Part shown: positions 5,771-49,753 of the stretch, one piece after another | How positions within the stretch are numbered: the first letter of the stretch is position 1 | How the letters are laid out: the number at the start of each line of letters is the position of its first letter | Source of the DNA: Sulfurirhabdus autotrophica | GTDB taxonomy: Bacteria; Pseudomonadota; Gammaproteobacteria; Burkholderiales; SMCO01 | Direction of reading: 5' to 3' | NCBI RefSeq assembly: GCF_004346685.1 | Contig: NZ_SMCO01000012.1 | Location: 1-64,000 of the forward strand | Length of the DNA: 64,000 nt | The notes under the pieces: model-generated | The model's database searches: none | What the model was told of the DNA's origin: nothing | The model's input: only the letters and a program-made list of their open reading frames with translations | Position numbers and translations under genes: made by a program

Positions 5771-5774
5771 CTTA

Positions 5775-9750: not shown

Positions 9751-9810
9751 AGGCACATCGTATTCCATGCTAATATGTCACAAACATTAATATTCCGAGA
9801 AGCAAAAACA

Positions 9811-10815: not shown

Positions 10816-10833
10816 TAACTGGCAGGAATTGAT

Positions 10834-23012: not shown

Positions 23013-23039
23013 AGAGTTTTAGCTTTGAAGAATGCGACG

Positions 23040-23756
23040 ATGAGCAACAATCAACTTAAACGATGCTGTGTCATAGCGACAAGTCGGGCGTGGAACCAGG
23101 ATATGGTTGAGCGACTGGGTGCTTTGACCGGACGAGATTTCAGGTTGATTACTACTCCGGGAGAGCTGACAGTAGAGAAATTGGCCCCCATTAATCCTGA
23201 ATTTATATTTTTCCCGCATTGGTCGCATCATATTGATTCAGGTATTTATGAGCAGTTCGAGTGTGTGATATTTCATATGACGGATTTGCCCTTTGGCAGA
23301 GGGGGAAGTCCGTTGCAAAATCTGATTGCACGCGGCATCTATGAAACCAAGATTTCAGCACTTCGTTGCGTGGAAGAAATGGATGCAGGGTCAATTTACC
23401 TGAAGAGGCTATTCAGCCTTTATGGCTCGGCAGAAGAGATTTTTATACGTGCATCCAGTGTCATCGAAGATATGATCGCAGAGATACTGCAAAAACTACC
23501 TGAACCAAAGCCGCAAGAGGGGGAGCCCACAGTATTCAAGCGGAGAAGACCGGAAGACGGTGATTTAGCCACAGCGCAATCACTGGAACAGATGTTTGAC
23601 CAGATCCGCATGCTGGATGCGGAGGGTTATCCTAACGCATTTTTGAATATTGGGCCTTTCAAGTTTGAATTTACCAGGGCATCACAGAAAGTCGGCCAGA
23701 TAATGGCGGATGTACGGGTTACGCTGGTCGACAACGTCAAAGAAAGAGATAACTAA
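23040..23756 (+). CDS. Formyltransferase-family protein of the pseudaminic acid cassette
   Basis: Protein of 238 residues with the core of the N10-formyl-THF-dependent formyltransferase fold. The motif FHMTDLPFGRGGSP corresponds to the catalytic HxSLLPxxRGxxP, giving H79, and MDAGSIY gives the catalytic D115. The asparagine normally two residues before the histidine is isoleucine here (I77). It could add a formyl group to an amino sugar of pseudaminic acid. The start is uncertain: TTG at 23025 with AGAGAG upstream is as plausible as the ATG used. The stop overlaps the pseI start (TAATG). Confidence 0.78.
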   Translation: MSNNQLKRCCVIATSRAWNQDMVERLGALTGRDFRLITTPGELTVEKLAPINPEFIFFPHWSHHIDSGIYEQFECVIFHMTDLPFGRGGSPLQNLIARGIYETKISALRCVEEMDAGSIYLKRLFSLYGSAEEIFIRASSVIEDMIAEILQKLPEPKPQEGEPTVFKRRRPEDGDLATAQSLEQMFDQIRMLDAEGYPNAFLNIGPFKFEFTRASQKVGQIMADVRVTLVDNVKERDN

Positions 23757-24802: not shown

Positions 24803-24828
24803 GATTATTTCATTTAATGAGGCCATAA

Positions 24829-25782: not shown

Positions 25783-25812
25783 TGCATGTTTAGGTGGGAG
25801 CTGTTGGGCTAA

Positions 25813-27627
25813 ATGAATAATATTCATGCGAATGGAAATGAAGAGGTTTTTCTTGTTACGACAGCGTTAGCAGAGTTTTGGGATACAACGAAGCCAATTA
25901 TTTTTCTGGGCGAGTGGTGTTTACGCTATAAACAACACGCATTTTGGGAAAAAGTTGACGGTAAGCTTATGGAAAGCCCTTTTCGTGAGCATGAGCAGAC
26001 CAAGGAGGCTTATGATTATATCAATCGGCTGTATGAAAAAATATTGCCTTTGCTTGGAGACGCGTTAAATTCGATTCATGAGGTAAATTATAGCAATCAC
26101 TATTGGAGGATAGTTGTTGGACCTTGGCTTCATTACTATTTGTCAACAGTATACGATAGGTATATACATTTAAAGAGCGCAATGGAAAAGCACCCGAAGT
26201 GCACCACTATCGGATTATCGGAGGAGTCATTTGTTACCCCTCATGATACGCTCGATTTTATTTGTTACCTTTTAGAAGATTCTTTCAACCTCCAGATTTA
26301 TACAAAACTGTTGTCTGCTTTGGGACGAGCGTTTCCAAGAAAGAAAGTGCAAATTAACTCCAACACGTTGTATACAAAAATGCAATCTAGCTCACTGAAG
26401 TCAAGAATATTTAGTAGAGCATTAAAAGTATGTTTAGATTTGTTTGCCAATATCTGGCACCCCACCTTACTAGTAAGTCCATATTTTTCTAGACATGCAG
26501 AATTTCAGTTGCTATTTAAGAGTTACGGGAAAGTATTGCCATTTCGAGCTATTAAGAAGAATTGGTCTTCAGTTTCGTGCGACAAAGCTATTCGAGAAAA
26601 ATTGAAGGTGATTCCGCTTGGAAAGGATGAATTTGAATGCTGCTTATCGAGTATGCTGTTTTCGGACGTGCCGCATTGTTATTTAGAAGGATTTAAGGGG
26701 AACAAAGAGTCGGCCGACACGATTTATCCCAAAAAAGTGAAAGCGATATTTAGTGCAAATAGCTGGTATTACGATGAGCCATTCAAACATTGGGCAGCAA
26801 CATCTGCTGATAAGGGCGCTTTGTTATTGGGAGCTCAGCATGGTGGAAGTTATGGGGGGCTGGCAATGATGGTCAGTGAGAATCACGAAACGGCAATAAC
26901 GGATTATTATTTTTCTTGGGGGTGGGAACGAGCAGATTGCATGTCCAGGGTAATTCCATTCTCAGCTACTAAATTAGCAGGTAGGGAAAAAATTGGAGCG
27001 AATAATCAGCAGTTTGGTATTTTATGGGCAGGTACAGCTTTACCAAGATATTTGGTGCAGTTTCCATTATTGCCAAAGTATTTTAATGAATACCTTTCAT
27101 GGCAAAGGCGCTTCGCTAACGTATTGTCGCAAAATGCCAGAGCCGAAGTTCGGGTGCGGCTTCTGGATGAAGATTATGGTTGGGATATTGCTCAGCGACT
27201 GATTGATACCTTTCCAGATATTAAAATTGAAACATCGACGGTGTCTTTTCTGGAGAGCCTCGGTAATTGTCGGCTATATGTATGCGATCATTTCTCAACG
27301 ACATTTGCCGAGGCTCTCGCGGCAAATAAGCCAACTATCCTGTTTTGGAACTCCCAAACTAATGAGTTGAGGCCTGAGGCTCAGTCTTATTTTGATTTAC
27401 TTCGAAAAGGCGGGATTCTTTTTGATACGCCGGAAAGTGCTGGGGAGGCCCTCAATCAAATTTATGATGACGTTGAAACTTGGTGGAATGATTCAGAACG
27501 GCAGAATATTGTTGAGATGTTTTGTGAGCGGTTTGCCCGGAATTCTCCTGATGCTATTGAATTGTGGGTCGCTGAATTCAAAAGGTTAGAAGCGATGCCT
27601 GGACTCAAGGTTAATCGCGTCGGATAG
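25813..27627 (+). CDS. LIC12162-type putative transferase
   Basis: Protein of 604 residues resembling the LIC12162 family of putative surface-glycan transferases. The N-terminus LVTTALAEFWDTTKPIIFLGEWC is the family hallmark; a C-terminal half with QHGGSYGG, YFSWGWE and FSTTFAEALAANKPTILFWN resembles GT-B enzymes that use CMP-nonulosonic acids. It lies next to the pseudaminic acid genes, so a pseudaminyltransferase is an attractive guess, but that is inference. The coding sequence is clearly more AT-rich than the pse genes upstream. Confidence 0.75.
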   Translation: MNNIHANGNEEVFLVTTALAEFWDTTKPIIFLGEWCLRYKQHAFWEKVDGKLMESPFREHEQTKEAYDYINRLYEKILPLLGDALNSIHEVNYSNHYWRIVVGPWLHYYLSTVYDRYIHLKSAMEKHPKCTTIGLSEESFVTPHDTLDFICYLLEDSFNLQIYTKLLSALGRAFPRKKVQINSNTLYTKMQSSSLKSRIFSRALKVCLDLFANIWHPTLLVSPYFSRHAEFQLLFKSYGKVLPFRAIKKNWSSVSCDKAIREKLKVIPLGKDEFECCLSSMLFSDVPHCYLEGFKGNKESADTIYPKKVKAIFSANSWYYDEPFKHWAATSADKGALLLGAQHGGSYGGLAMMVSENHETAITDYYFSWGWERADCMSRVIPFSATKLAGREKIGANNQQFGILWAGTALPRYLVQFPLLPKYFNEYLSWQRRFANVLSQNARAEVRVRLLDEDYGWDIAQRLIDTFPDIKIETSTVSFLESLGNCRLYVCDHFSTTFAEALAANKPTILFWNSQTNELRPEAQSYFDLLRKGGILFDTPESAGEALNQIYDDVETWWNDSERQNIVEMFCERFARNSPDAIELWVAEFKRLEAMPGLKVNRVG

Positions 27628-27637: not shown

Positions 27638-29170
27638 ATGCTTCATTCTAGGTCAGTAAAAACCAGATTCTTGGTGTCCGTTGGTTCCAATAGTATCCGA
27701 GGCATGATCGGTTTCGCTTCCGGATTGCTTATTGCGCGTGGTTTGAATCCATCTGGATATGGCGATTTAATGTTCCTTTTGGGTAGTTTTGTCGCCATTC
27801 GGTCGTTGCTGGATATGGGAAGTTCAAGTGCGTTTTACACCTTCATGTCCCGGCATGTCCAAGGACCCAGATTCTATTCATTCTATTTTACTTGGTTGGT
27901 ATTGCAATTTGTAATAACGCTGTTGTTCGTTGCATTGATTATCCCTGATAATATTTTTGCAAGAGTTTGGCTAGGGCATAACCGAGAAATTGTTTTAATT
28001 ACCCTCTTGGCGGCTTTCATGCAACAACAAGTCTGGCAGACGGTTAGTCAGATCGGTGAAAGCATGCGGAAAACTGTAAAGGTGCAATTGCTGAACCTTT
28101 TCATTGCAATATTCTATTTGGCGATGGTTTCATTATTGTTGATTCTGGAGAGTATGTCGATAGAAAACATCCTGTTTTTAATGATTGTCCAATATGTACT
28201 CGCTACGCTATTGGCCTACCAGTTTTTCAGAGAAGATCAAGCTGGGTTCGTTGAAAAAGACGCAACTCTCAAACAAATATTTCAGGAATATTGGGTGTAT
28301 TGCAAGCCCCTGATCGCGCTTTCTCTGGTTAGCTTTTTGTACGATTTCGCTGACAAATGGATGCTTCAAAAATTCGGAGGGTCGACACAGCAAGGTTATT
28401 TCCAGATCGCGAGCCAGTTTTCAACTGTCAGCCTTTTAGCAACAACTTCAATTTTGAGTATCTTTTGGAAGGAAATTTCCAATGCGCTTGCAAAGCACGA
28501 CCACGCTAGGGTCACTATGCTCTACCATAAGGTAAGTAGAGGGCTTGTTATGTTGGGGGCAATTATTACCGGATTATTGCTTCCATGGGCAGAGCAGATT
28601 GTGACGGTTTTCTTAGGACCGTCGTATGTGCAGGCTTGGCCAGTACTAGCGATTATGTTGCTTTACCCAATACATCAATCGATGGGGCAAATTGGTGGAA
28701 CTATGCTTTTGGCTGGTGGGCATACACATAAATATATGGTTGTGAGCATGATGATAATGTTAGTTTCTGTTCCTTTTTCTTACCTGATGCTTGCCCCGGC
28801 TGCTGGGGCGTTGGTTCCTGGTCTAGGGATGGGGGCTGTCGGTATCGCGTCAAAAACTGTGTTATTGAGCATAGTCGCCGTAAATATTCAGGCATTGGTT
28901 ATAGCGCGATACAGCGGATGGAAGTTCGATTGGTTGTATCAGGTGATTGGCATTCCGTTAATGGTTGGATTGGGTTATTTGGCTAAGATGTTTGTGGGAT
29001 TGTTGTGGAACTCAGATGGGACTGGTAATATGACCGACCTGATTATTTCGGTTATGCTTACATTCTTGGTTTACGGTATTTCTGTTACGTTGGTGTTATG
29101 GTTGCTTCCATGGTTGTTCGGTATGGAAAGGGAGGAAATTGAATACCTATTTAGGAAATCTAAATCCTGA
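27638..29170 (+). CDS. Wzx-like oligosaccharide flippase (MOP superfamily)
   Basis: Polytopic inner-membrane protein of 510 residues with about 12-14 hydrophobic helices. The N-terminal SNSIRGMIGFASGLLIARGLNPSGYGDL pattern is typical of polysaccharide exporters of the MOP superfamily, which flip undecaprenyl-linked repeat units. It follows the LIC12162-like gene by 10 bases. A second MOP domain exists in the fusion at 37887-40796, so the cluster has two candidate flippases. Confidence 0.87.
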   Translation: MLHSRSVKTRFLVSVGSNSIRGMIGFASGLLIARGLNPSGYGDLMFLLGSFVAIRSLLDMGSSSAFYTFMSRHVQGPRFYSFYFTWLVLQFVITLLFVALIIPDNIFARVWLGHNREIVLITLLAAFMQQQVWQTVSQIGESMRKTVKVQLLNLFIAIFYLAMVSLLLILESMSIENILFLMIVQYVLATLLAYQFFREDQAGFVEKDATLKQIFQEYWVYCKPLIALSLVSFLYDFADKWMLQKFGGSTQQGYFQIASQFSTVSLLATTSILSIFWKEISNALAKHDHARVTMLYHKVSRGLVMLGAIITGLLLPWAEQIVTVFLGPSYVQAWPVLAIMLLYPIHQSMGQIGGTMLLAGGHTHKYMVVSMMIMLVSVPFSYLMLAPAAGALVPGLGMGAVGIASKTVLLSIVAVNIQALVIARYSGWKFDWLYQVIGIPLMVGLGYLAKMFVGLLWNSDGTGNMTDLIISVMLTFLVYGISVTLVLWLLPWLFGMEREEIEYLFRKSKS

Positions 29171-32788: not shown

Positions 32789-33568
32789 ATGCTTATGAAA
32801 GTCGTGATTCTGTGTGGCGGCTACGGAACTCGGATTCGAGACGTTGCAGATAATATTCCCAAGCCAATGATTCCAATTGGGCGCTATCCAATTTTGTGGC
32901 ACATCATGAAATATTACGCAAGCTTTGGGCATCAGGATTTTGTGTTATGTCTTGGCTATAAAAGTCAGGTGATCAAGGATTTTTTTCTGAATTATGAGGC
33001 TCACACCAAGGACTTCACAATAGAACTAGGCAAGCGAGAGAAAATTGAATTTCATACTGATCATGATGAATCTGATTGGCGAGTAACGCTAGCCGATACG
33101 GGTATGGAAGCAATGACTGGAGCGCGTATCGCGCGAATTCGGAAATATGTTGGTGATGAAGATTTTATGCTGACTTACGGCGATGGTGTGGGAGATATTG
33201 ACGTTGAGGCTTTACTGGCTTTCCACCGTTCGCATGGAAAAACACTGACGGTATCTGGAGTGCGTCCACCAGGCCGATTTGGAGAGTTGGTCAGCGATAT
33301 GGGGCAGGTGGTAGAGTTTAACGAAAAACCCCAGGCAACAGGAGGGAGGATTTCCGGCGGATACTTTGTTGCAACGCCTAAATTGTTTGATTATCTGGAT
33401 GATGCTGAAGATCTGGTGTTTGAGCAGGAGCCCATGCGTAAACTGGTGGCTGATGGTGAGTTGATGGTGTTTGAGCATGATGGTTTTTGGCAACCAATGG
33501 ACACAAGTCGTGAGTATCAATTGCTTAACGCGCTATATGAGCAGGGAAAAGCGCCGTGGGTGAAATGA
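32789..33568 (+). CDS. rfbF: Glucose-1-phosphate cytidylyltransferase RfbF (DdhA)
   Basis: First step of CDP-6-deoxyhexose synthesis: CTP plus glucose-1-phosphate to CDP-glucose. The 259 residues include LCGGYGTRIRDV near the start, IPKPMIPIG and the metal-binding TYGDGVGDID near 132. Length and motifs match the DdhA family. AAGG lies upstream of the ATG; a second ATG two codons in is possible. The last bases overlap rfbG. Confidence 0.95.
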   Translation: MLMKVVILCGGYGTRIRDVADNIPKPMIPIGRYPILWHIMKYYASFGHQDFVLCLGYKSQVIKDFFLNYEAHTKDFTIELGKREKIEFHTDHDESDWRVTLADTGMEAMTGARIARIRKYVGDEDFMLTYGDGVGDIDVEALLAFHRSHGKTLTVSGVRPPGRFGELVSDMGQVVEFNEKPQATGGRISGGYFVATPKLFDYLDDAEDLVFEQEPMRKLVADGELMVFEHDGFWQPMDTSREYQLLNALYEQGKAPWVK

Positions 33569-34638
33569 TGGCTACGGAGTTCCTGTCTGTTTTTGCCGGT
33601 CGCCGCGTGATGGTAACCGGACATACCGGTTTTAAAGGCTCATGGTTGGCTTTCCTGCTCAACGAGATCGGTGCGGAAGTATTGGGGTATGCGCTCCCCG
33701 CAGAACAAAAGGAGAGTCATTTTGTAGTCTTGGCGTTGGACAAGTCAATTCGACACGTCGAAGGTGATGTGCGCGATGGGACGAAGCTCACGGAAACTAT
33801 GGCTGGTTTCCAGCCTGAGTTCGTATTTCATTTGGCTGCTCAAGCTTTGGTGAGGCCATCCTATACGGATCCAAAAGCAACATTTGAGACAAATGTGATG
33901 GGTTCAGTGAATCTGCTGGAAGCTGTGCGCCAGTGTGAATCAGTTCGTTCTCTGGTTTATATTACCTCTGACAAATGCTACGAAAACCTGGAATGGGTGT
34001 GGGGGTATCGGGAGAATGACCGATTGGGAGGGTACGATCCTTATAGTGCCTCGAAAGCCGCAGCAGAAATTGCCTTCTCGGCCTATGCGCGCTCCTTTTT
34101 TGCCCATCGTCCTGAATTAGGTGCCGCAACGGCACGGGCCGGCAATGTGATCGGAGGTGGCGATTGGGCATTGGATCGGATTGTGCCAGATTGTATCCGC
34201 GCTATTGGTTTGGGTAAGCCAGTTGTGTTGCGCAACCCCAAGGCTACTCGGCCATGGCAGCATGTCCTAGAGCCACTTGCCGGTTATCTGTTGCTTGCAA
34301 TGCGCTTGCGGGAGCAACCATTGACTTATTCAAGTGCCTGGAACTTTGGCCCACCTTCCAGTGAAGTGCGGACCGTGTTACAAGTGGCGGAGCAAATTGT
34401 AAGTCGTATCGGGCGTGGAAGTGTCGTTATTGAACCCAGCGAGGTAAAATTGCATGAAGCAAATTTACTGCAACTTAATTGTGACAAGGCGCACCGATTG
34501 CTTGGTTGGAAACCACGCTGGAACGTAGAAAAAACGCTGGAAGCAACTGCTGACTGGTATAAGGCGGTGATGGATGGTGCTGAGGTTGCTATGGTTACCC
34601 GCCAACAATTGCGAGATTATTTTCCGGAGCTAAAATGA
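33565..34638 (+). CDS. rfbG: CDP-glucose 4,6-dehydratase RfbG (DdhB)
   Basis: SDR of 357 residues converting CDP-glucose to CDP-4-keto-6-deoxyglucose. The diagnostic VTGHTGFKGSWLAFLL is at about 17-32, ITSDKCYEN gives the catalytic Thr/Asp/Lys, and [10 protein letters not shown] the Tyr-x3-Lys. The ATG at 33565 overlaps the rfbF stop; ATG at 33568 is equally possible and a GTG lies at 33556. No rfbH (3-dehydrase) follows, so the route keeps the 3-hydroxyl and does not lead to paratose, abequose or ascarylose. Confidence 0.95.
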   Translation: MMATEFLSVFAGRRVMVTGHTGFKGSWLAFLLNEIGAEVLGYALPAEQKESHFVVLALDKSIRHVEGDVRDGTKLTETMAGFQPEFVFHLAAQALVRPSYTDPKATFETNVMGSVNLLEAVRQCESVRSLVYITSDKCYENLEWVWGYRENDRLGGYDPYSASKAAAEIAFSAYARSFFAHRPELGAATARAGNVIGGGDWALDRIVPDCIRAIGLGKPVVLRNPKATRPWQHVLEPLAGYLLLAMRLREQPLTYSSAWNFGPPSSEVRTVLQVAEQIVSRIGRGSVVIEPSEVKLHEANLLQLNCDKAHRLLGWKPRWNVEKTLEATADWYKAVMDGAEVAMVTRQQLRDYFPELK

Positions 34639-36074: not shown

Positions 36075-36857
36075 TTGATTAACGAAGCACCTTTGGTTTC
36101 TGTCGTCATTCCTACCTATAATCGGGTAGGGCTGCTGCGCGAGACAATCGGGTCAATTCTGTCTCAGACGCTTCAAGATTTCGAGATTATTATTGTTGAT
36201 AACATGTCCATTGATGGAACAGAGGACTATGCTTCACATCTTGATGACTCCAGAATAAGATACTTCAGAAACCCCAATAATGGGGTGATCGCTGTAAATC
36301 GCAATTTGGGGATTAGGCATGCCAAAGGTAAATACCTGGCTTTCTGTGATGATGATGATCTTTGGATGCCAGAAAAGCTTCAGCGCCAAATAGATGTTAT
36401 GGAGAACAATGTCGATATTGGACTCTGTTATACCAATGGTTATTCATTTCGAGAAAACGATGTTATACATACTCGGCTGGCTAGAAAAAGGGTATTTAGT
36501 GAACATTTTCGTCATTTGCTATGGGAAAACTGCATTCCCAGTTCAAGCGTTCTAGTCAGAAAAGTAATTTTTGAAGAAACTGGCCTTATAGATGAGAACA
36601 TAGAATTAGTCGCTGTAGAGGATTACGAGATGTGGCTAAGAATTGCCTATATCTCGAAATTGGCCTATGTGGATGAGGCTTTAATCAAATACAGGTTTCA
36701 TAATAATATTTCATCAGGACTTGCCAATATAGCATTAAAAAATGTTCGTGCGATAAAGGGCTTAGGGGAAAAGCTGGGAATTAACAGCTTATTAATACTG
36801 AGATCGATTTTGCATCAATATGCGAAGTATATTTATTTTCGCTTAACCGGTAGGTAG
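36075..36857 (+). CDS. Family-2 glycosyltransferase
   Basis: GT-A glycosyltransferase of 260 residues. PLVSVVIPTYNRVGLLRETI at the start, DNMSIDGTED, and the DXD-like FCDDDDLWMPEKL near residue 95 are all present. EDYEMWLRIA near 190 is the usual catalytic-base region. The start is ATT-adjacent and not certain: TTG at 36075 is the only codon that keeps the full N-terminal strand. It is AT-rich like the genes after it. Acceptor and donor unknown. Confidence 0.86.
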   Translation: MINEAPLVSVVIPTYNRVGLLRETIGSILSQTLQDFEIIIVDNMSIDGTEDYASHLDDSRIRYFRNPNNGVIAVNRNLGIRHAKGKYLAFCDDDDLWMPEKLQRQIDVMENNVDIGLCYTNGYSFRENDVIHTRLARKRVFSEHFRHLLWENCIPSSSVLVRKVIFEETGLIDENIELVAVEDYEMWLRIAYISKLAYVDEALIKYRFHNNISSGLANIALKNVRAIKGLGEKLGINSLLILRSILHQYAKYIYFRLTGR

Positions 36858-36887
36858 TCGTGTCTCAAACCCCCAACTCCTTTTCTT

Positions 36888-37799
36888 ATGCATCGCATTA
36901 GTTTAATCATTCCTTGTTATCGGGATTCCGCAACGTTAGGCCGGGCAATTGAGTCGGCATATGCCCAAACGATGCCTGCCTATGAAATTATTGTTATTAA
37001 TGATTGTTCCCCAGAGACTGAAGAAATTGAGAAGGTTTTAAAAGCCTACAAGGATGTTGTTTACTTTAAAAACCCTGTCAATATTGGGTTGGCGGCTACA
37101 AGAAACAAAGGAGTTTCCATTGCAGGCGGTGAAATTGTTACATTTCTTGATGCGGATGATGAGTTGCACCCGCAGAAATTAGAATTGCAATATCCATTTG
37201 TTGGGAAAAATTGTGTAGTCGCATGCAATGTTGAGCGGGTTGCTATCGGACGTCTGCCTGGACAGTGGTGTCATTATGAGCAGGCAAATGCCAAGCTCTT
37301 CCGGGGTTCGAGATGGATGATCTATCGAAATGCCCTGACCGGAGCTTCACTGATGGTTTATAAATGCTTGCTAGAGCGAATGGGCGGGTATGATAGTGAC
37401 CTGCGTTCGTGTGAAGACTTCGATCTTTGGTTGCGTTTTGCTAAAGAGGGTATACAGATTAATAATATTCGCTTGCCACTGTACCGTTATTATTTTAATC
37501 AGAGCGGATTATCGAAGAATTATTTAAATATTTCTAACTGGGAAGTTAAAGTATTGCTAAAACACTTCAGCCGCGAATGCGTGACTTTGAGTAATTCAAA
37601 ATGGGCGGCTAGCGTATGGGCATTCTATTTATTAAAGCAAATGGCGCGTTATGAAGCTAGCAATGATCCTCAATTGGCAGAATTAATTGATAGTAATCTG
37701 TCAAAGTTGGATTCTGTATCATACTTGTTCACTTTGTTGCGATTAATCTGGATTTCTAGACTGCCTAAAGCATACGTTAAGTTGTTTGGTGGATTGTAA
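36888..37799 (+). CDS. Family-2 glycosyltransferase
   Basis: GT-A glycosyltransferase of 303 residues. ISLIIPCYRDSATLGRAIESAYAQT at the start, VINDCSPETEEIE, and TFLDADDELHPQKLE near residue 87 form the donor and metal site, while SCEDFDLWLRFAKEG near 185 is the catalytic-base region. It is related to its upstream neighbour but clearly distinct. Together they probably extend the lipid-linked glycan by two residues. Confidence 0.87.
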   Translation: MHRISLIIPCYRDSATLGRAIESAYAQTMPAYEIIVINDCSPETEEIEKVLKAYKDVVYFKNPVNIGLAATRNKGVSIAGGEIVTFLDADDELHPQKLELQYPFVGKNCVVACNVERVAIGRLPGQWCHYEQANAKLFRGSRWMIYRNALTGASLMVYKCLLERMGGYDSDLRSCEDFDLWLRFAKEGIQINNIRLPLYRYYFNQSGLSKNYLNISNWEVKVLLKHFSRECVTLSNSKWAASVWAFYLLKQMARYEASNDPQLAELIDSNLSKLDSVSYLFTLLRLIWISRLPKAYVKLFGGL

Positions 37800-37886
37800 A
37801 AGTGCTAAAAATAGTAGCCGTGAATCCTCTTTCCAATTTATCAAATTGTAATATAACAATCAGCAGTGAATTTCGGGAAAAAGTGG

Positions 37887-40796
37887 ATGCTTGATCAAAA
37901 TCAAGTTAATACTAAAACACATATCCATAAGTTTGGTATTCAGCCCTCAATATTATTGTGGATTGTTTTTTTCTGTTATGCCACTTTTATGGCATTGATA
38001 TTTCAAAAATTAATCTTACCTTTAATTCCGTCGCTACATGCTGGAAAAGGTTTGATGACAAATGATGCTGCATATTTTCATTCGGTAGCCGTAACACTTG
38101 CAGATGCTATTAATCAGCATGGCTGGGGAAGTTGGAAGCTATGGCCAGCTCCACCTGGAGCTATGGGGAATGTTGGGCTGCTTGCAGCATTATATGTGCT
38201 ATTTGGAAATGACCCATCGTTAATTATACCGATCAATGCAGCCGTACACGCGAGCGGGGGAGTGCTGATTTATCTTATTACCCGGAGGCTATGGGAAGGT
38301 AATGTAGGCAATGTTGCAGGTGTGATTGCAGCCTGTTTGTTTATTACGTTTCCATCTGCCCTCAATTGGTATGGTCAACTACACAAAGATGGGTATGCAA
38401 TACTTGGTATATTACTCGTATTATATTCTTGGGTCTGGTATATAGACCAACCCGGGAAATTAAAGGATGCCATTAGACTGGCACTGGGAAGCCTTTTAGG
38501 TATCCTTTTGATAGATTTTGTCAGGCCATACATTTTAAATTTGCTCATGATTGCCATTATGGGGTTTGTTGTAGGAATGCTGTTTTTTTCAATTTTCACA
38601 AAGAAGCTGGAACGACAATATAGTCATGCAGCTTTTGCAATTGTAGTGTTTGCACTAGTAGTTATTAGTTCGGTGATTTCCATAAAACTGCTTCCTTCAT
38701 CTGCTTCAATTAATGTAGAAAATGACAGCGAGATAGTTGCAAACATGTATGAGAGTTGCCCGGAACTTAAAAAATGGCAGTGGCATGCTAATGAATATTT
38801 GCCTGAGAAGTTTGAACATTATTTGGAAGCTGCTGCACGAGTGAGAGCCTTTTCTATATGTAAAGGTGCTTCAGCAAGATCTCAGATAGATAGCGATCGA
38901 TCGCCCAATAGTTTTCTGTCAGTTTTAGCGTATATGCCACGAAGTTTAGAAATTTCATTGTTAGCGCCTTTTCCAACCACTTGGGTTCAAAATATTAGCG
39001 CAATGAAACTGGTTGGGGTTATGGAAACAGCCATTTGGTATTTGATTATTCCAGGGGTCTTGCTAGCACTATACTATCGTCCTACACCTAAAATTATACT
39101 TTCGCTTGTTTTTGCCACAGTATTTTTAGCTATTTATGGTTTTGTTACTCCAAACGTAGGCACCTTATACCGCATTCGATTCCCATATTTATTTGTTTTC
39201 ATAGTGGTAGGTGCTTTGGGTTGGACATATTTTTTTATGAAAAGAAAAAAATATGAAAATGAAAAACAAATTGACAAAGAAGACACAGAGTTTGAAGTTA
39301 ATGATCAATCCTTGAGTAAAAATGATGCTCTTTCAAGGAGATCAATAACAACTGCAGGTTTTATGGTGTCAATCTTGACAATGGTTTCTTTTTTAGGCTT
39401 GTTTGTTCGTGACGTTTTGATGGCCAGATGGTTTGGTTTGGGTAACGAACTCGATATATTTTTTATCGCAATGATGTTGCCAATGTTCTTTGTTAATGTT
39501 CTTTGCGTGCCATTTGGAGCCGCCGTTATACCGTTTTTTATGGAATTAAAGGAAAAGATGTCTGTAGCTTTAGCGGATACGGTCGCTGAGCTTTCTTTTG
39601 CGGTCAATGCATTTTTGGCATTGTTATGCCTTGGTATCTATTTGTTGATGCCTATTCTGCTTCCGTTAATGGGATGGAGTTTTGAACAGGAAAAAATAAA
39701 CCACGTTTCCAGAATAATGTTGTTTGCATTGCCAATATTGTTCTTTAGTGGGATGACAATATTGGGTAATTCTTTATTAAATGCTTCTGGAAAGCTTTCT
39801 CAGCCCGCATTGTTACAACTTGTGGTACCTGTCCTGGCAGTTATTGTATTGATATTGTTTGGCCATCAGTTTGGTGTCATAGTTGTGGCTGCAGGTATGC
39901 TTTTTGGGCAAATAATCAATTTAGGATTAGTAATTATTTCCCTTAGAGGCCAAGGAATTACATTTTATCCACGCTGGCCTAAGCATTTGAAGTCTGTGTA
40001 TGCAGTATTGCCGCAATTTACAGTACTTGTTGCATCTGCATTATTTATTAATGCAGCAATCTTAATAGATAATGTTATGGCATCAAGTTTGGATACTGGT
40101 AGTGTTGCAGCGTTAAATTTGGGAAATAAGGTGGTGTTGTTTGTTACTGGCGTTATTGGTACGGGTTTGACTACGGTGATGTTGCCATATTTTTCTGGTT
40201 TCATGGCTCAACGCCGGCTGAGTGAAATGCGTCATGAACTATCCTTTTTTTTGTTTCTCATTAACCTGTTTGCTATTCCAGTGGCTCTAGGGCTTTATTT
40301 GATGTCGGATAATATTGTGCATTTCGCTTTTGAAGGAGGTGCTTTTGGTCGAGAGGAGGCTTCATTGGTTTCACGAGTAGTGAAATTTGGCGTGATACAA
40401 CTCCCATTTTTTGCCTGTAACGTTTTGTTATTGAAATTTGCGGTCGCGAGCCGCCACAATGCCTTGATAATAGTTACTTCTCTATCTGGACTTTGTTTAA
40501 ATGTAATTTTGAATCTTGCGTTTATGCCGCATTTTGGGGTGTCAGGTATCGCTTTAGCTACGACACTTTCCATGATGGTGACGACTGGACTTTTGTTAAT
40601 AATGATTTATAAGTTAAAGCATTTGGAAGGGTTGGATTTAGTATGTATCCTCCTTTTCTGGGCCCTTTTTCTGACAGAAGTTCTCTGTTTATATTATAAA
40701 AGCTATGTTGGAGTGTTCGTCGCAACTTTAGCGATGTTGTTTCTGGTTGCAGGAAGCGGCAAATTGTTTTTTGGAAACAAACCTATCTCTATTTAG
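37887..40796 (+). CDS. Fused GT-C-like membrane glycosyltransferase and MurJ/Wzx-like flippase
   Basis: Very large inner-membrane protein of 969 residues. Residues 1 to about 450 are polytopic, with about ten hydrophobic helices and an early extracytoplasmic MTNDAAYFHSVA loop like the acidic loop-1 motif of GT-C (PMT/ArnT-like) enzymes. A charged cytoplasmic linker (about 450-480, MKRKKYENEKQIDKEDTE) leads into a complete MOP-superfamily domain most like MurJ, with SFLGLFVRDVLMARWFG, VPFGAAVIPFF and GVSGIALATTLSM. I used the ATG at 37887 with GGGA eight bases upstream; a GTG at 37866 lacks a ribosome binding site. Such a protein could both glycosylate and flip lipid-linked glycans, but that is inference. 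Strongly AT-rich. Confidence 0.8.
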   Translation: MLDQNQVNTKTHIHKFGIQPSILLWIVFFCYATFMALIFQKLILPLIPSLHAGKGLMTNDAAYFHSVAVTLADAINQHGWGSWKLWPAPPGAMGNVGLLAALYVLFGNDPSLIIPINAAVHASGGVLIYLITRRLWEGNVGNVAGVIAACLFITFPSALNWYGQLHKDGYAILGILLVLYSWVWYIDQPGKLKDAIRLALGSLLGILLIDFVRPYILNLLMIAIMGFVVGMLFFSIFTKKLERQYSHAAFAIVVFALVVISSVISIKLLPSSASINVENDSEIVANMYESCPELKKWQWHANEYLPEKFEHYLEAAARVRAFSICKGASARSQIDSDRSPNSFLSVLAYMPRSLEISLLAPFPTTWVQNISAMKLVGVMETAIWYLIIPGVLLALYYRPTPKIILSLVFATVFLAIYGFVTPNVGTLYRIRFPYLFVFIVVGALGWTYFFMKRKKYENEKQIDKEDTEFEVNDQSLSKNDALSRRSITTAGFMVSILTMVSFLGLFVRDVLMARWFGLGNELDIFFIAMMLPMFFVNVLCVPFGAAVIPFFMELKEKMSVALADTVAELSFAVNAFLALLCLGIYLLMPILLPLMGWSFEQEKINHVSRIMLFALPILFFSGMTILGNSLLNASGKLSQPALLQLVVPVLAVIVLILFGHQFGVIVVAAGMLFGQIINLGLVIISLRGQGITFYPRWPKHLKSVYAVLPQFTVLVASALFINAAILIDNVMASSLDTGSVAALNLGNKVVLFVTGVIGTGLTTVMLPYFSGFMAQRRLSEMRHELSFFLFLINLFAIPVALGLYLMSDNIVHFAFEGGAFGREEASLVSRVVKFGVIQLPFFACNVLLLKFAVASRHNALIIVTSLSGLCLNVILNLAFMPHFGVSGIALATTLSMMVTTGLLLIMIYKLKHLEGLDLVCILLFWALFLTEVLCLYYKSYVGVFVATLAMLFLVAGSGKLFFGNKPISI

Positions 40797-40918: not shown

Positions 40919-42061
40919 GTGAAAAAAATTTGTATTGTTACTGCAAGTGAAATGACAGTTCAAGCCTTTTTGCTTAACCATTTGAAGGCTATGCAAGAAA
41001 TCTATGAAGTTTATGTTATTACAAATACAGTGACGCCCGATTTTCTTCAAGCGTTTGGAATTCAAGCTAAAGTAATCCCTTTACGGATTGAAAGGAAAAT
41101 TTCACTTTGGACAGATTTGCGTGCAATGTTTAGCCTTTTTCTTGTTTTTCGGCAGAACCATTTTGACCTGGTTCATTCGGTTACTCCTAAAGCAGGTTTG
41201 TTATCAATGATGGCAGGATGTTTTGCTTTTATCCCGATTCGACTTCATACATTTACAGGTCAGGTTTGGGCAACAAGATCTGGCTTGGGACGTTTTGTGT
41301 TAAAAAATGTGGATAGGCTGCTAGGTAAGTGTGCCACACATCTCTTGGTGGATAGTGTTTCACAGAAGGAGTTCTTAGTTCACGAGCATGTTCTCTCTTC
41401 AAATAAGGCGACTGTTCTTGTACACGGTTCCATAAGTGGTGTGAATACCGAGCGCTTTAAACCAAATCCCATTTCCCGGAGGAAAATTAGACAGCAAATT
41501 GGCATTGCTGAAACTGGCATTCTGTTTCTTTTTTTGGGGCGATTAACCAAAGATAAAGGCATATTGGATTTGGTTGAGGCATTTACCCGGCTTCGCAAAG
41601 ATAATCAAGAGATCCATTTGCTGTTGGTTGGCCCAGATGAGGATGCAGTTCAAAAGGCTATTAGAGAAGTTAGCAGTGATTGCATAGGTAGTATTAATTT
41701 TGTAGGGTTTACTAATACTCCGGAAGCGTATATGGCTGCAGCAGATGTATTTTGCCTTCCCAGTTATCGAGAAGGCTTTGGAAGCGTCATTATCGAAGCA
41801 GCATGTGTGGGTATCCCGGCTATTGGTTCGAGGATTTATGGCATTGTTGATGCTATTGAAGACGGAAAGTCAGGCTTGTTGCATGATGCAAAAAATGTTC
41901 AGGATTTGTTGGATAAAATGCGATTGTTGGCATCAGACAGCGAGTTGAGGGGTAAAATGGGACGATATGCGCAAAACCGTGCGAAAAGTCTTTTTCCAAC
42001 ATCAATAGTGACTGCGGCACTGTTGGAATATTATCAGGAATTGCTGCCGGAAACGTTATGA
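40919..42061 (+). CDS. Family-4 glycosyltransferase (PglA/WbnK-like)
   Basis: GT-B glycosyltransferase of 380 residues. Its N-terminal part ([28 protein letters not shown]) matches the group that adds a second sugar to undecaprenyl-linked bacillosamine or QuiNAc, such as PglA. The C-terminal domain has [18 protein letters not shown] and the EX7E motif in [18 protein letters not shown]. Start is GTG at 40919. It overlaps the next gene (ATGA), which encodes the phosphoglycosyl transferase that makes its probable acceptor. Confidence 0.88.
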
Positions 42062-42666
42062 TAAAACGCTTTCTTGATATGCTTTCTTCATTGATTTTGT
42101 TGATACTTTTTTCCCCTGTTATGGTTGTTGTAGCAATCTTGGTTCAGATTTTTATCGGTAGCCCGTTTTTGTTTAAACAGTTAAGGCCCGGCAAAAATGC
42201 CAAACCTTTTTATCTGTATAAATTTCGCACCATGAGTAATGAGCGTAATGGCAGAGGTGAGTTTTTGCCTGATGAGTATCGATTGCAGAGATTCGGGAAA
42301 ATATTACGTCGTTTAAGTTTGGATGAACTTCCGCAGTTGATTAATGTGTTGAAAGGCGATATGAGTTTGGTCGGCCCTCGTCCGTTATTGATGGAATATT
42401 TGTCGTTGTATTCTGCTGATCAGGCCAGACGACATGATGTAAGGCCAGGTATTACAGGATGGGCGCAGGTGAACGGACGAAATGCAATCAGTTGGGAGGA
42501 GCGATTTAAGCTGGATGTCTGGTATGTGGATCACCAGTCTTTGCTGCTTGATTTAAAGATCTTTTGGCTTACAGTGATGAAAGTATTGCGTTCAGAAGGG
42601 GTCAATCAAGAGGGGCATGTAACGATGGAAAAATTTGCGGGCAATGCAAGAAACGATGTTAGATGA
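42058..42666 (+). CDS. Initiating phosphoglycosyl transferase (PglC-like)
   Basis: Small monotopic bacterial sugar transferase of 202 residues that moves a phospho-sugar from a UDP-sugar to undecaprenyl phosphate, the committed first step of a lipid-linked glycan. The re-entrant hydrophobic helix is at about 10-33, [21 protein letters not shown] follows, and the catalytic dyad is D89-E90 in [10 protein letters not shown], then [12 protein letters not shown]. Short forms like this belong to the PglC class, and the next three genes make the matching UDP-sugar. Overlaps its neighbour by 23 bases. Confidence 0.92.
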
Positions 42667-43300
42667 AAAAGAATCCATTTTTGTGTTTGGCGCTAGCGGC
42701 CACGCAAAAGTAGTTATTGATGCGATTGAAAAGCAGGGAGCGTTTAAAATTGCTTTTCTGATAGATGATAATAAGGCTCTCTGGGGGCAAGACTTTTATG
42801 GTTATCCTGTCTATGGAGGCAGGGAAACATTAGTTGCCGAAAGCCAAGAAATTCTGACAGATAGAGGGATTGTCGCAATCGGTGAAAATAATATCAGGTT
42901 GAAAGTGGCTGAATGGCTTGTGAAAAATGGATTTAAACTTGTGAGCGTGATTCATCCATCCGTACAAATTGCTCGTGGGGTAAAGGTTGGGCGTGGATCC
43001 GTGATTATGGCGGGTTGCATTATTAATTCGGACGCGGTTATAGGTGAAAATGCCATTATCAATACTGCAGCAACAGTGGACCATGATTGTGCAGTTGGTA
43101 ATGGGGTGCATATTGCGCCAGGAAGCCATCTGTGTGGCAATGTACAAGTGGGTGAGGGTAGTTTGATAGGTGCGGCCAGTGTTATCACGCCAGGTATTTC
43201 TATTGGCAATGGGGTTGTCGTTGGAGCTGGATCGACTGTGATTAAAAACGTAAATGAAAATGAAAAAGTGGTGGGTTCACCCGCCCGCATCGTTAAATAA
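42644..43300 (+). CDS. Sugar N-acetyltransferase, PglD/NeuD-like
   Basis: Acetyltransferase of 218 residues. The N-terminal alpha/beta domain [16 protein letters not shown] binds the UDP-sugar, and from about residue 100 a left-handed beta-helix of hexapeptide repeats ([37 protein letters not shown]) holds acetyl-CoA; H in VDHDCAVG is the catalytic base. With the aminotransferase downstream it should make UDP-N,N'-diacetylbacillosamine. ATG codons at 42644 and 42656 are possible starts. Confidence 0.9.
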
Positions 43301-43320: not shown

Positions 43321-44535
43321 ATGAAATTTGTAGATCATTTGGCCATTGATGGTAATGAGCCACTACGCTCAGAGCCATTCGCCCCTTGGCCTTATTTTGA
43401 GCGGGATGAGATAGCGGTTGTCGAAAACGTGCTTGCATCTGGCAAAGTGAACTATTGGACCGGACAAGAAGGCCGCAAGTTTGAAGAAGAATTTGCATCC
43501 TTTGTTGGGTGTCAGTATGCAATTGCCCTTGCCAATGGAACGGTGGCGCTGGAGTTGGCTTTGTATGCGTTAGGTATTGGCCCCGGTGATGAGGTGATTC
43601 TTACTAGCCGGACTTTCATTGCTTCTGCAAGCTGTGTGGTTATGCGTGGCGCGACTCCAGTTATGGCTGACGTTGATCTGGTTAGCCAGAATGTAACAGC
43701 TGACAGCATCCGAGCTGTCTTATCACCCAGGACGAAAGCGATAATAGCGGTGCATTTAGCTGGATGGCCATGTGAAATGGATCCTATCCTAGCATTGGCT
43801 AATGAGTATGGGCTGAAGGTAATTGAAGACTGCGCTCAGGCCCATGGTGCAACTTATAAAGGAAAGCTGGTTGGTTCGTTGGGTGATGTGGCAGCTTTCT
43901 CATTTTGTCAGGACAAGATTATGACCACTGGAGGTGAAGGTGGCATGTTTACGACTAATGACCGGCAAATATGGGAAAAAGCTTGGGCATTTAAAGATCA
44001 TGGCAAGAGCTATGATGCAATTTATAACCGGGAAGCTAAGCCAGGCTTCAACTGGGTGCATGATTCTTTTGGCACAAATTGGCGTATAACCGAAATGCAG
44101 GCAGCTATCGGGCGGGTCCAGCTTCTAAAATTACCCGCTTGGCTAGAAACCAGGCGGCGAAATGCCCTGATTTTGAGACAATGTTTTGAGAAAATACCTG
44201 GATTGCGAGTAACCGTTGCACCAGAATATGTGGACCATGCTTACTACAAATTTTATACATTTACAAAATCAGAAATGTTAAAAGCAGGTTGGGATAGGGA
44301 TAAAATAATGCTGGCGATTGTGGCTGAAGGCGTTCCATGCTTTAGTGGCAGCTGCAGTGAAATATATCTGGAGAAAGCCTTCCCAAAATCCATGCGACCT
44401 CCTGCGAGACTGCCGATAGCTAAACAACTTGGTGAAACCAGCTTGATGTTTTTGGTGCATCCGACGCTTGAAGAAAAAGATATGCACGATATTTGCCAGG
44501 CTGTAGAAAAAGTCATGAGAGCTGCGGTGCAATGA
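43321..44535 (+). CDS. UDP-4-keto-sugar aminotransferase, PglE-like
   Basis: DegT/DnrJ/EryC1/StrS PLP aminotransferase of 404 residues. The PLP lysine is K199 in FSFCQDKIMTTGGEGG and D170 lies in VIEDCAQAHGA. It aminates C4 of the 4-keto-6-deoxy UDP-sugar produced by the dehydratase downstream. The serine-lysine region and the size are normal. A second, only distantly similar aminotransferase (PseC) serves the pseudaminic acid route. Confidence 0.92.
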   Translation: MKFVDHLAIDGNEPLRSEPFAPWPYFERDEIAVVENVLASGKVNYWTGQEGRKFEEEFASFVGCQYAIALANGTVALELALYALGIGPGDEVILTSRTFIASASCVVMRGATPVMADVDLVSQNVTADSIRAVLSPRTKAIIAVHLAGWPCEMDPILALANEYGLKVIEDCAQAHGATYKGKLVGSLGDVAAFSFCQDKIMTTGGEGGMFTTNDRQIWEKAWAFKDHGKSYDAIYNREAKPGFNWVHDSFGTNWRITEMQAAIGRVQLLKLPAWLETRRRNALILRQCFEKIPGLRVTVAPEYVDHAYYKFYTFTKSEMLKAGWDRDKIMLAIVAEGVPCFSGSCSEIYLEKAFPKSMRPPARLPIAKQLGETSLMFLVHPTLEEKDMHDICQAVEKVMRAAVQ

Positions 44536-44569: not shown

Positions 44570-46393
44570 ATGAACATAAGAGGTTTGTTGGCTTTTTTAC
44601 ATGATGTTTTGGCTTCGGCAGCGGCGTGGGTTGTGGCTTATTGGCTGCGTTTCAACCTGGATATTCCTCCTTCTTATACCCAGAATATGCTGCAAACCTT
44701 GCTCTATGTGGTCCCTGTACAGGCTGCGGTATTCTGGTATTTCGGTTTGTATCGTGGTATCTGGCGCTATGCTAGTTTGCCTGATATTAAGCGGATATTG
44801 ATAGCCGTTATTTTGGCAACCTTACTGGGTTCGCTTACTTTAATGTTGTTCAGGGCGTCAGGCCAGATTCCTCGTACGGTATTTTTGCTTGATCCCGTTT
44901 TGTTAGTGATGTTAATGGGCGGAAGTCGGCTACTCTATCGCGCTTGGAAAGAACATCGGTTATATGGCACATTTCAGTTGCAAGGCTTGCCGGTTCTGAT
45001 TCTGGGAGCGGGTGATGCGGCGGCTAACTTGATCAAGGCACTTGAGAGAAGTAACGAATGGCGCGTTGTTGGTGTCCTTGATGACAATATACACAAGCAT
45101 GGAAGGTTGGTTCAGGGTGTGCCTATTTTGGGCAGGCTGGATGAATTGCCTTTATTTGCAACAAAACTATCTGTCGGACAGGCAATTATTGCAATGCCGT
45201 CTGCCTCTCATGCCATTCGCAGACGAGTGGTAGGGCTATGCACCGATGCTGGAATTAGGGTTCTAACGGTTCCGTCATTTGAAGATTTGATGTCAGGGAA
45301 GGTTGCAGTCTCGCAAATACGGAATGTCGAGCTCGATGATTTGCTTGGGCGTGACCCGGTGGTGCTGGATGATAAACAGTTACACAATTTCTTGACAGAT
45401 AAAGTGGTGATGGTAAGTGGAGCTGGTGGCTCTATTGGCTCGGAGCTTTGCCGTCAAATTGCTAAATTTAATCCAAAGCATTTGGTGCTATTTGAACTGA
45501 ATGAATTTGCTCTGTACACGATAGAGCAGGAATTTCTTGAGAAGTTTCCAAAAATCAGTGTGATATCTGTAGTAGGGGATGTAAAAAAACGAGCCAGAGT
45601 GGATCAGGTAATTGAGACGCATCAACCTACGGTGATATTTCACGCGGCAGCGTATAAGCACGTGCCTCTCATGGAGAGAGAAAATGCTTGGGAGGCTATG
45701 CAAAATAATATTTTAGGAACTTATTGTCTGGCCAGTTCTGCAGTGCAACACGGAGTAGAAAAGTTTGTGCTGATTTCGACTGACAAGGCGGTGAATCCCA
45801 CAAATGTCATGGGGGCAAGTAAGCGTCTCGCTGAAATGGTATGTCAAGGCCTGCAACAGAAAGAGCAAACAAAGTTTGTGATGGTGAGATTTGGAAATGT
45901 ATTGGGCAGTACAGGCAGCGTGATACCAAAATTCCGTGAGCAAATTGCAAATGGAGGACCTATTACCGTGACTGACCCCGAAATAACCCGCTACTTCATG
46001 TCTATTCCTGAGGCTGCGCAACTGGTATTGCAGGCAGGTTCAATGGGTAAGGGCGGTGAAGTATTTGTCATGGATATGGGTGAGCCGGTTCGTATTGTTG
46101 AACTGGCAAAAGACATGATCAGATTGTCTGGATTTAATGAGGAAGATATAAAAATAGTCTTTACTGGATTAAGGCCCGGTGAAAAGCTGTATGAGGAATT
46201 ACTTGCTGATGACGAGCATACGTTACCTACGCCTCATCCAAAATTGAGAATCGCAAAAGCCCGTGAAGCAGATTTGAAGTGGCTTGAGAAATTGGTAACG
46301 TATTTGTCTGAAAGCCCCATTTTGAAAGATGAAGACGTCAGGCGAGACTTAAAAGAGTGGGTGCCAGAGTATTCATGTAGTAATGGTAAATAG
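44570..46393 (+). CDS. Membrane UDP-GlcNAc 4,6-dehydratase, PglF/WbpM/CapD-like
   Basis: Two-part protein of 607 residues. Four hydrophobic helices occupy about 1-110, then a CoA-binding-like Rossmann domain (VLILGAGDAAANLI, about 140-250), then a catalytic SDR domain with SGAGGSIGSELCRQI near 283, AAYKHVPLME with the catalytic lysine near 362, and STDKAVNPTNVMGASK near 402-420. Methionine replaces the SDR tyrosine in the last motif, which is normal in this family. It makes the 4-keto-6-deoxy-UDP-sugar for the PglE- and PglD-like enzymes just upstream and ends the long plus-strand series. Confidence 0.94.
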   Translation: MNIRGLLAFLHDVLASAAAWVVAYWLRFNLDIPPSYTQNMLQTLLYVVPVQAAVFWYFGLYRGIWRYASLPDIKRILIAVILATLLGSLTLMLFRASGQIPRTVFLLDPVLLVMLMGGSRLLYRAWKEHRLYGTFQLQGLPVLILGAGDAAANLIKALERSNEWRVVGVLDDNIHKHGRLVQGVPILGRLDELPLFATKLSVGQAIIAMPSASHAIRRRVVGLCTDAGIRVLTVPSFEDLMSGKVAVSQIRNVELDDLLGRDPVVLDDKQLHNFLTDKVVMVSGAGGSIGSELCRQIAKFNPKHLVLFELNEFALYTIEQEFLEKFPKISVISVVGDVKKRARVDQVIETHQPTVIFHAAAYKHVPLMERENAWEAMQNNILGTYCLASSAVQHGVEKFVLISTDKAVNPTNVMGASKRLAEMVCQGLQQKEQTKFVMVRFGNVLGSTGSVIPKFREQIANGGPITVTDPEITRYFMSIPEAAQLVLQAGSMGKGGEVFVMDMGEPVRIVELAKDMIRLSGFNEEDIKIVFTGLRPGEKLYEELLADDEHTLPTPHPKLRIAKAREADLKWLEKLVTYLSESPILKDEDVRRDLKEWVPEYSCSNGK

Positions 46394-48496: not shown

Positions 48497-49753
48497 TTAT
48501 TTCGCTGTTGTAGTAGTGGATACGTTTTGTTTTTTGAGATGCAAATAGGCAAGCCACATACCAAGCAATGTGGCACTTAAAATACCATGTTCGTGATGCA
48601 GTGTGGTATTGACAAAACCTACACCAACGTTGACAAGCCACGCTGATAAACTGGACCCCCAAAGCGCCCATTCAATATCCTCATCCTGTATTTTCGGGCG
48701 AAAGCGTATTAAAGTATAGAGCCACGACAACAGAATGGTGACTAAGACTGACAAACCAATGGCACCCCGTTCAGCCAAGGCAGTGAAAAAGAGACTATGG
48801 CCATGCGCGCTGCCTAAATAATAAGAAGGGTCAAAAGGTTTGCCCGATGCTTCAACCCAGGTTTGAACCTTTTCCATGCTAATTTGGTTGTAGTTGTGCA
48901 TACCCACGCCAAATAATGGAAACTCTTTCCAGGCAACGATGGCGCTATGCCAAATCTGATCACGGCCCGTGAGTAGCCGGTTTTCTTTGGCAACAGCTTC
49001 TTGTTTCTTTACCACATCAATTTTGGCAAAGTAAGCACCTGCAACAACGCACATGATACCGACAAGAAGCAAGATACCGGATTTGCCTGAACGCTTTACC
49101 CAGGCAATTCCGAGGATGATTGCAAACACGATTGCCATTGCGACCGCTGCACGACTAGCGCTAATCAATACGGCCACTGCAAACAGCACTATGCAGAGTG
49201 TGCCTAATAGCCGCCCTATGATACCCAGTTTTTTCCAGAGGGCTAATGTATACGATAAAGCAACACCAAAGCTGATCGCCATATAAATTGCGCTGTGGTT
49301 AACATGTCCAACCGAGTTCAGTTCCAACAGTTGTCTAGTGTGCGATACATAGAGTGCCCAGAAGGCATAGGTTAGTGCTATCAGTGTGGATGTAATTACA
49401 GTGAATCCTAACCACATCAGCTCATTACGTTGATAACCGCTGCGCTTGATGAGCCATAAGATGGAGCCGTAACGAAGAATGTCATTCGCACCGCCCCATT
49501 CACTACTGTGCATACCGGCAAAGGCAGAAATAACATACCCGGAAACAATCCAGGTGAAAATAAGACTATCCCAGATGTCCCACTGACCGCCAAAATTTTT
49601 GTCTTTGAAGCGATTGAACAACCAAGTAATGCAATATGCAAGCCAAAATATATTTTTAGGTGCCTCAAGGAGCGGAACTGCGATAATTAAACCGATAAGC
49701 AATACGACTTCAATTAAATATTTTGAGGTGAGTTTTGTGACTATGCTGGTCAT
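48497..49753 (-). CDS. O-antigen ligase WaaL family protein
   Basis: Polytopic inner-membrane protein of 418 residues with about 10-12 helices. The Wzy_C region shows ISASRAAVAM, LTGRDQIWHSA, LFGVGMHNY and SAHGHSLFFTALAERG, the large periplasmic loop with the essential histidine of ligases. It is predicted to move lipid-linked glycans onto the lipid A-core. Ligases and Wzy polymerases share this domain and sequence alone does not separate them fully; its place among core genes favours ligase. Confidence 0.82.
   Translation of the reverse strand: MTSIVTKLTSKYLIEVVLLIGLIIAVPLLEAPKNIFWLAYCITWLFNRFKDKNFGGQWDIWDSLIFTWIVSGYVISAFAGMHSSEWGGANDILRYGSILWLIKRSGYQRNELMWLGFTVITSTLIALTYAFWALYVSHTRQLLELNSVGHVNHSAIYMAISFGVALSYTLALWKKLGIIGRLLGTLCIVLFAVAVLISASRAAVAMAIVFAIILGIAWVKRSGKSGILLLVGIMCVVAGAYFAKIDVVKKQEAVAKENRLLTGRDQIWHSAIVAWKEFPLFGVGMHNYNQISMEKVQTWVEASGKPFDPSYYLGSAHGHSLFFTALAERGAIGLSVLVTILLSWLYTLIRFRPKIQDEDIEWALWGSSLSAWLVNVGVGFVNTTLHHEHGILSATLLGMWLAYLHLKKQNVSTTTTAK

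Follow-up and report, generated by a model that had tools for sequence, protein, structure and literature searches.

The window analysed here is a stretch of 64,000 nucleotides from the start of contig NZ_SMCO01000012.1 of Sulfurirhabdus autotrophica, whose genome is available as a draft of 59 contigs and 3.86 Mb. It carries a cluster of glycan genes between 9 and 46 kb, and within this cluster lies a gene for a fused membrane protein, in which a predicted glycosyltransferase domain of the GT-C type is followed by a flippase domain of the MOP type (Table 1). The open reading frame (ORF) has no internal stop and runs to position 40796 from either a GTG at 37866 (976 aa) or an ATG at 37887 (969 aa). 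An earlier note on this DNA, made without database searches, had described a 969-residue chain that joins a GT-C-like domain to a whole MurJ/Wzx-like MOP domain through a charged linker, with borders at about residues 450 and 480, and had proposed structure prediction and a search for the same two-domain layout as checks. AlphaFold2 models, for which alignments of the window protein with relatives from the loci described below were the input, agree with this description: 10 membrane helices are found in residues 20–461 and 14 in residues 477–962, so that the borders had been placed accurately, and the linker between them is indeed charged. Predicted local distance difference test (pLDDT) and predicted template modelling (pTM) scores were 86.7 and 0.86 for the whole chain and 85.8 and 0.87 for the N-terminal domain (residues 1–461). 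Confidence below 50 in the whole-chain model is confined to the N-terminal tail, residues 272–279 and the linker, and its pTM suggests a defined packing between the two halves.

Table 1. Features of the fused gene and of its cluster in the window
Feature	Position	Strand	Basis
Whole fused gene	37866..40796	+	ORF; 22 other loci have homologues of equal length and layout
Predicted GT-CA fold domain, aa 1–461, 10 transmembrane (TM) helices, conserved site modelled as periplasmic-facing	37887..39269	+	AlphaFold2, VIA-align
D60 codon, N-terminal tip of first juxtamembrane helix (60–78)	38064..38066	+	Conserved in every member covering the position
Q164-x-H166-K167-D168 motif, second periplasmic loop	38376..38390	+	Q164, K167 and D168 invariant in 33/33
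R429-x-R431, periplasmic loop before last GT-C TM helix	39171..39179	+	Invariant where covered
Linker, aa 462–476, charged, cytoplasmic, low-confidence	39270..39314	+	pLDDT <50 at 462–476
Predicted MurJ-type MOP flippase domain, aa 477–969, 14 helices	39315..40793	+	Pfam; VIA-align; residue comparison
Separate Wzx-like flippase	27638..29170	+	hhalign against Wzx alignment; weak full-length TuaB match
Two GT2 glycosyltransferases (36075–36857, 36888–37799), directly upstream of the fusion	36075..37799	+	Pfam Glycos_transf_2
GT4 glycosyltransferase, PglA-like place	40919..42061	+	Pfam Glycos_transf_1; synteny
Monotopic phosphoglycosyltransferase, PglC/WcaJ type, initiating undecaprenyl diphosphate (Und-PP) glycan	42058..42666	+	Pfam Bac_transf 5e-65
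PglD/NeuD-type acetyltransferase	42635..43300	+	Pfam PglD_N; TIGR03570 above cut-off
PglE/DegT-type aminotransferase	43321..44535	+	Pfam DegT_DnrJ_EryC1 5e-98
PglF/WbpM-type membrane 4,6-dehydratase	44570..46393	+	Pfam Polysacc_synt_2 1e-122 with CoA_binding_3

The model of the N-terminal half points to a GT-CA glycosyltransferase fold. Comparison with VIA-align gave a Z score of 22.4 with AglB (3waj; 320 residues, 4.1 Å), followed by PMT4 (21.0), ArnT (5f15, 20.6) and PglB (5ogl, 19.9), and the alignments to known GT-C enzymes span 305–361 residues at Z about 20–22. Foldseek returned the same kind of match, with weak E values (5e-4 to 0.05) for oligosaccharyltransferase (OST), AglB, PglB and ArnT entries. 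The best fold matches are all GT-CA enzymes; GT-CB enzymes are absent among the matches listed, which alone excludes nothing. At the level of sequence, no Pfam or NCBIfam family matches residues 1–478 above cut-off, the Pfam hints being a sub-threshold DUF6541 and one PMT_2 only. No match to the N-terminal half was obtained in the PDB by phmmer, and a profile search there gave one irrelevant weak match; a plasmid search returned no match, and viral structures nothing at E <0.001. The N-terminal half is a GT-CA domain family without a Pfam or NCBIfam name of its own. A known non-glycosyltransferase membrane family, which the earlier note had considered as an identity that would undo its proposal, was looked for in Pfam and NCBIfam and among the folds and was not found.

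With AglB, STT3 and PglB among the best fold matches and a gene neighbourhood like Campylobacter pglA-C-D-E-F (see below), the protein could be a flippase–OST fusion for protein glycosylation, equivalent to PglK plus PglB of a pgl-like cluster. We regard this as improbable. STT3 (PF02516) is not among the Pfam matches of the fusion at E up to 1, nor is an STT3 found elsewhere in the genome; the WWD motif (WW[DNE]) occurs in no member of the N-domain alignment; and the large periplasmic C-terminal domain of OST type is absent from the model.

Topology was read by hand from the model helices with the N terminus set inside. The last of the 10 helices then ends on the cytoplasmic side, and the charged linker connects it there to the MOP domain. 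Among the 33 members aligned, strongly conserved columns number 57 on the periplasmic and 4 on the cytoplasmic side, against a background of 288 and 145 (433; Fisher p=3e-7), and the share of lysine plus arginine is 22% in the cytoplasmic versus 8.5% in the periplasmic loops. A conserved site that faces the periplasm is thus supported by the model. Residues D60, Q164, K167, D168, R320, S332, P351, P361, W366, E380, R429 and R431 are invariant wherever covered, and six basic residues (K167, R213, R320, R352, R429 and R431) are strongly conserved. In PimE, ALG6, ArnT and PglB, the first juxtamembrane helix has the catalytic Asp at its apex (PMC12041525), and D60 appears, by its position, to occupy this place; in a profile alignment with PMT_2 enzymes, D60 falls on the DE motif of the latter, but at E 0.007 and a probability of 5% this is a hint only. 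Of the earlier claim of a glycosyltransferase working on the periplasmic side, then, the GT-C fold and the outward-facing conserved site stand at the level of the model, and glycosyl transfer is the activity that they would predict.

The C-terminal half is more readily assigned. Residues 512–948 match the Pfam family MurJ (PF03023) at 6.1e-46, and the NCBIfam family murJ_mviN (TIGR01695) matches at 2.1e-50, although its 171.9 bits lie below the equivalog cut-off of 235.55. Z scores were 37.2 with MurJ 7wax, 35.0 with Escherichia coli MurJ (6cc4), 31.4 with WzxE and 22–30 with MATE transporters. The alignments to MurJ reach at least residue 960 while those to WzxE end near 915, which fits the two extra helices of MurJ, and the model is that of a complete MurJ-like flippase domain of the MOP fold, with its two six-helix bundles. 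The central cavity of E. coli MurJ contains three essential arginines, R18, R24 and R270 (PMC9973255). We compared the MOP domains of fused and split members (n=26) with 22 canonical MurJ proteins, E. coli numbers being assigned through the alignment offset. The R24 position is retained in 25 of the 26, and D25 is kept too (R508-D509 of the fusion), whereas most have F, Y or L at the R18 position (F502 in the window protein), all 26 have K at the R270 position (K748), and the R52/R53 and E273 positions are lost. The fused and split MOP domains form a coherent MurJ-like subfamily with an altered cargo site. Because an ordinary murJ is present elsewhere in the genome (G000:C3:40579-41907, E 4.4e-151) and the cavity residues are changed, flipping of lipid II by the fused half is unlikely, and we argue that its cargo is a different one.

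A search with the whole protein returned relatives that cover its full length and share its layout, in the genomes G114 (43% identity, residues 20–960) and G074 (30%). By profile, the N domain occurs in 8 of 399 genomes of the order, 7 of 398 from the phylum and 4 of 369 from the class, the genome of the window being counted each time; its occurrence is sporadic but wide. A first scan of genome contigs with the N domain as a single query found nothing, and the scan of GTDB genomes succeeded with the N-domain alignment, yielding 30 named loci. The fusion is present in 23 loci including the window, from gamma-, beta- (Gallionella, Sideroxyarcus, Herbaspirillum and Rhodocyclaceae) and zetaproteobacteria and from records labelled Deltaproteobacteria. 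The draft state of the genome and the existence of split versions might suggest two genes joined by an error of annotation or assembly, as the earlier note had feared of the sequencing. Such an artefact is excluded for practical purposes, as 22 further loci, assembled independently and spread over several classes, carry the fusion too.

The halves are encoded by adjacent separate genes in L078, where several in-frame stops and a new ATG separate the two, and in L050, with a 4-base overlap; a third apparent split pair, L077, was rejected, as it looks like a frameshifted copy of the fusion in L075. The N domain stands alone in nine other loci. In a maximum-likelihood tree of the N domain, fused and split members form one clade (Shimodaira–Hasegawa approximate likelihood-ratio support 99), which includes a solo paralogue from L086, the other solo domains falling outside; in the tree of the MOP domain they likewise form one clade (97), apart from canonical MurJ. 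Distances of the two halves correlate at r=0.88, a value reached in none of 2000 permutations. The single clades and the correlation indicate that the halves have travelled together. The long-branched split pair of L050 branches basally among the N domains, yet inside the MOP clade, so that either fusion or splitting may have come first.

Several loci show further arrangements. In L086, a fused copy of 1080 aa (5745–8987) and the solo N-domain copy (9938–11323) are sister paralogues beside a Wzy_C gene. Two Rhodocyclaceae metagenome-assembled genomes (MAGs) have an NAD-dependent epimerase domain ahead of the GT-C domain, as a triple fusion with the MOP domain in L076 (8972–12757, 1261 aa) and in an incomplete gene in L083 (2527–4791). 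L088, from a Nitrospirota MAG, has two tandem solo GT-C-like domains followed by a polytopic ORF of 500 aa (8109–11407). In the solo clusters of L090 (1175–2539), L091 (2944–4332) and L110 (583–1959), a MurJ-like flippase gene is found at a distance of a few kilobases, as though the two cooperated unfused. We claim no phage link for L110, a contig labelled ‘viral’, which carries ordinary bacterial sugar genes.

The gene neighbourhood of the fusion is conserved. Of the 23 fused loci, 19 have an adjacent GT4 gene of the same family, at a distance of up to 1.5 kb, as against one of nine solo loci, and the corresponding figures are 21 and three for a PglC-like gene within 4 kb, 20 and none for a PglD-like gene within 5.5 kb, 18 and none for a PglE-like gene within 6 kb, and 12 and three for a PglF-like gene within 9 kb; the counts for the fused loci were reached despite contig ends. 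The stop of the fusion often overlaps the start of the next gene (gap -3). The PglC/WcaJ-type enzyme of the window also matches TIGR03025, with 252 bits and under the cut-off.

Elsewhere in the cluster, positions 15734–27627 hold pseudaminic-acid-type genes, including two unusual fusions, one of a cytidylyltransferase with a class III aminotransferase (18743–20782) and one of a GT28 C-terminal domain with a GNAT acetyltransferase (21462–23012), after which comes a LIC12162-family transferase (25813–27627). A CDP-glucose 4,6-dehydratase (33556–34638; TIGR02622, 469 bits, above the NCBIfam cut-off) and the nucleotidyltransferase and sugar epimerase beside it make up a CDP-sugar branch of the same cluster.

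Since both the fused protein and its gene neighbourhood recur in many unrelated bacteria, it is probable that a single chain couples the flipping step to glycosyl transfer. Our working hypothesis, which we hold to be somewhat more probable than its negation, is a single-chain ‘flip-and-transfer’ enzyme, in which the MOP half flips an Und-PP-linked glycan and the GT-CA half uses it in the periplasm. The events that we infer, namely flipping, hand-over between the halves and glycosyl transfer, and with them the identity of the glycan, would be as follows. On the cytoplasmic face the PglC-like, GT4, GT2 and PglD/E/F-type enzymes would build the glycan on Und-PP, its first sugar being probably of the bacillosamine type; the MurJ-like half would flip it to the periplasmic side; and the GT-CA half, with its site at the periplasmic surface, would take it at once without release into the membrane pool. 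Two versions of the last step share the weight of this hypothesis about evenly. The flipped glycan may be the donor in a block transfer, the GT-CA half then acting as a polymerase, terminal transferase or ligase; the reasons are the missing Wzy candidates discussed below and the six conserved basic residues. Alternatively, it may be an acceptor that receives one further sugar from an undecaprenyl phosphate (Und-P) donor, because four of the five GT-CA families in CAZy use lipid-P-monosaccharides and GT66 alone uses lipid-PP-oligosaccharides (PMC10920833).

Some points weigh against this hypothesis. The fold by itself is no proof of activity, as PIGU has the same fold and another function (PMC12041525), and the fused loci L081 and L084 have no PglC-like gene nearby. 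Moreover, the cluster contains a second flippase, the separate Wzx that the earlier note had placed at 27638–29170. Profile comparison backs that assignment (hhalign probability 92.9, E 3.6e-7), with no Pfam family above cut-off (best E 0.33). Separate Wzx-type flippases also occur in L062, L063, L065, L066, L072, L074 and L081, so that the lipid handled by the MOP half could be a different one. This might be the case in a three-component side-chain system, with the MOP domain flipping an Und-P-monosaccharide whose sugar the GT-C domain then attaches, in the periplasm, to a lipid-linked glycan or a polymer. A MATE-family flippase and a GT-C enzyme act in this way as separate proteins in Citrobacter (PMC11127046); the separate Wzx would then be left for the main repeat, and the preference of most GT-CA families for lipid-P-monosaccharides agrees. 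The conserved neighbours, however, make an Und-PP-linked glycan, and a GtrB-like probe gave only weak generic GT2 matches in the fused loci, with no conserved GtrB/ArnC-type Und-P-sugar synthase near the fusion, though such a synthase may be encoded elsewhere in the genome. We consider such a side-chain role unlikely.

Returning to the flip-and-transfer hypothesis, the donor version has a specific form in which one chain fills the roles of both Wzx and Wzy, a GT-CA polymerase taking the Und-PP repeat straight from the flippase cavity. This is nested within our hypothesis, so the two confidences are not to be added, and we think it possible but doubtful. About half of the fused loci have no further polytopic Wzy candidate in the DNA covered; in L061, L089, L090 and L110 (N domain alone), the flippase and the N domain are the only polytopic proteins recognized; and the six basic residues could hold a diphosphate without metal. 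Against it, known polysaccharide polymerases are assigned to GT-CB or to no structural class, and none to GT-CA (PMC10920833); the N domain matches no Wzy_C model (PF04932, no match in the fusion at E up to 1); and in L070, L072, L074 and L086 the fusion has a Wzy_C protein encoded nearby. The earlier note had spoken of a missing Wzy that the fusion might explain. No Wzy candidate is recognized in the 9–46 kb cluster of the window, and to that extent the observation holds, but a Wzy_C/O-antigen-ligase gene is present at 48497–49753 (-), which by its setting among heptosyltransferase genes looks like WaaL. The presence of Wzy_C proteins beside the fusion in several clusters argues that it is no general Wzy substitute; replacement of Wzy is possible where no other candidate exists.

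Whether lipid-linked sugars reach periplasmic enzymes from flippases by diffusion through the membrane or by direct transfer has long been asked for the Wzx/Wzy, MurJ and N-glycosylation pathways. As the fusion is natural and conserved and its operon fixed, coupling could be tested directly in one protein that can be purified. Searches of open-access papers turned up neither a fusion between a MOP flippase and a GT-C enzyme nor a flippase covalently joined to an enzyme that consumes its cargo outside. With MurJ (PF03023, TIGR01695), the C-terminal half shares the 14-helix fold (Z 35–37, 21–22% identity) and the R24, D25 and D39 positions; it differs in its fusion to a GT-C domain, its place in an operon of surface glycan genes in a genome with its own murJ, the changes at R18, R270, R52/R53 and E273 and the score under the equivalog cut-off. 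With ArnT (GT83), PMT (GT39) and PglB/AglB/STT3 (GT66), the N-terminal half shares the predicted fold, the Asp at the tip of the first juxtamembrane helix and the outward face; unlike them it lacks a family-level sequence match above cut-off, a WWD motif and a large soluble domain, and it is fused to a flippase. In the Campylobacter pgl cluster for N-glycosylation, PglA/C/D/E/F-type genes stand beside a flippase and a protein of the GT-CA fold, as they do around the fusion; there, the flippase, PglK, is of the ABC type, and WWDYG is carried by a separate PglB. A MATE flippase and the GT-C enzyme GT136 make up a three-component periplasmic glycosylation system together with a dedicated donor synthase, the donor being Und-P-pentofuranose (Kelly et al., 2024, PMC11127046). 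That system likewise pairs a MOP/MATE flippase with a GT-C enzyme, but the two are distinct polypeptides there, whereas here they form one chain beside Und-PP glycan genes. An enzyme and a membrane-flippase domain are combined in one protein in MprF and archaeal AglD (PMC5898192). The flippase fold of these proteins is unrelated to that of the MOP half, and the enzyme of the fusion would act after flipping. In MprF and AglD, the enzyme domain works on the cytoplasmic side, before flipping. Both parts of the fusion are known folds, and it is their joining that seems to be new.

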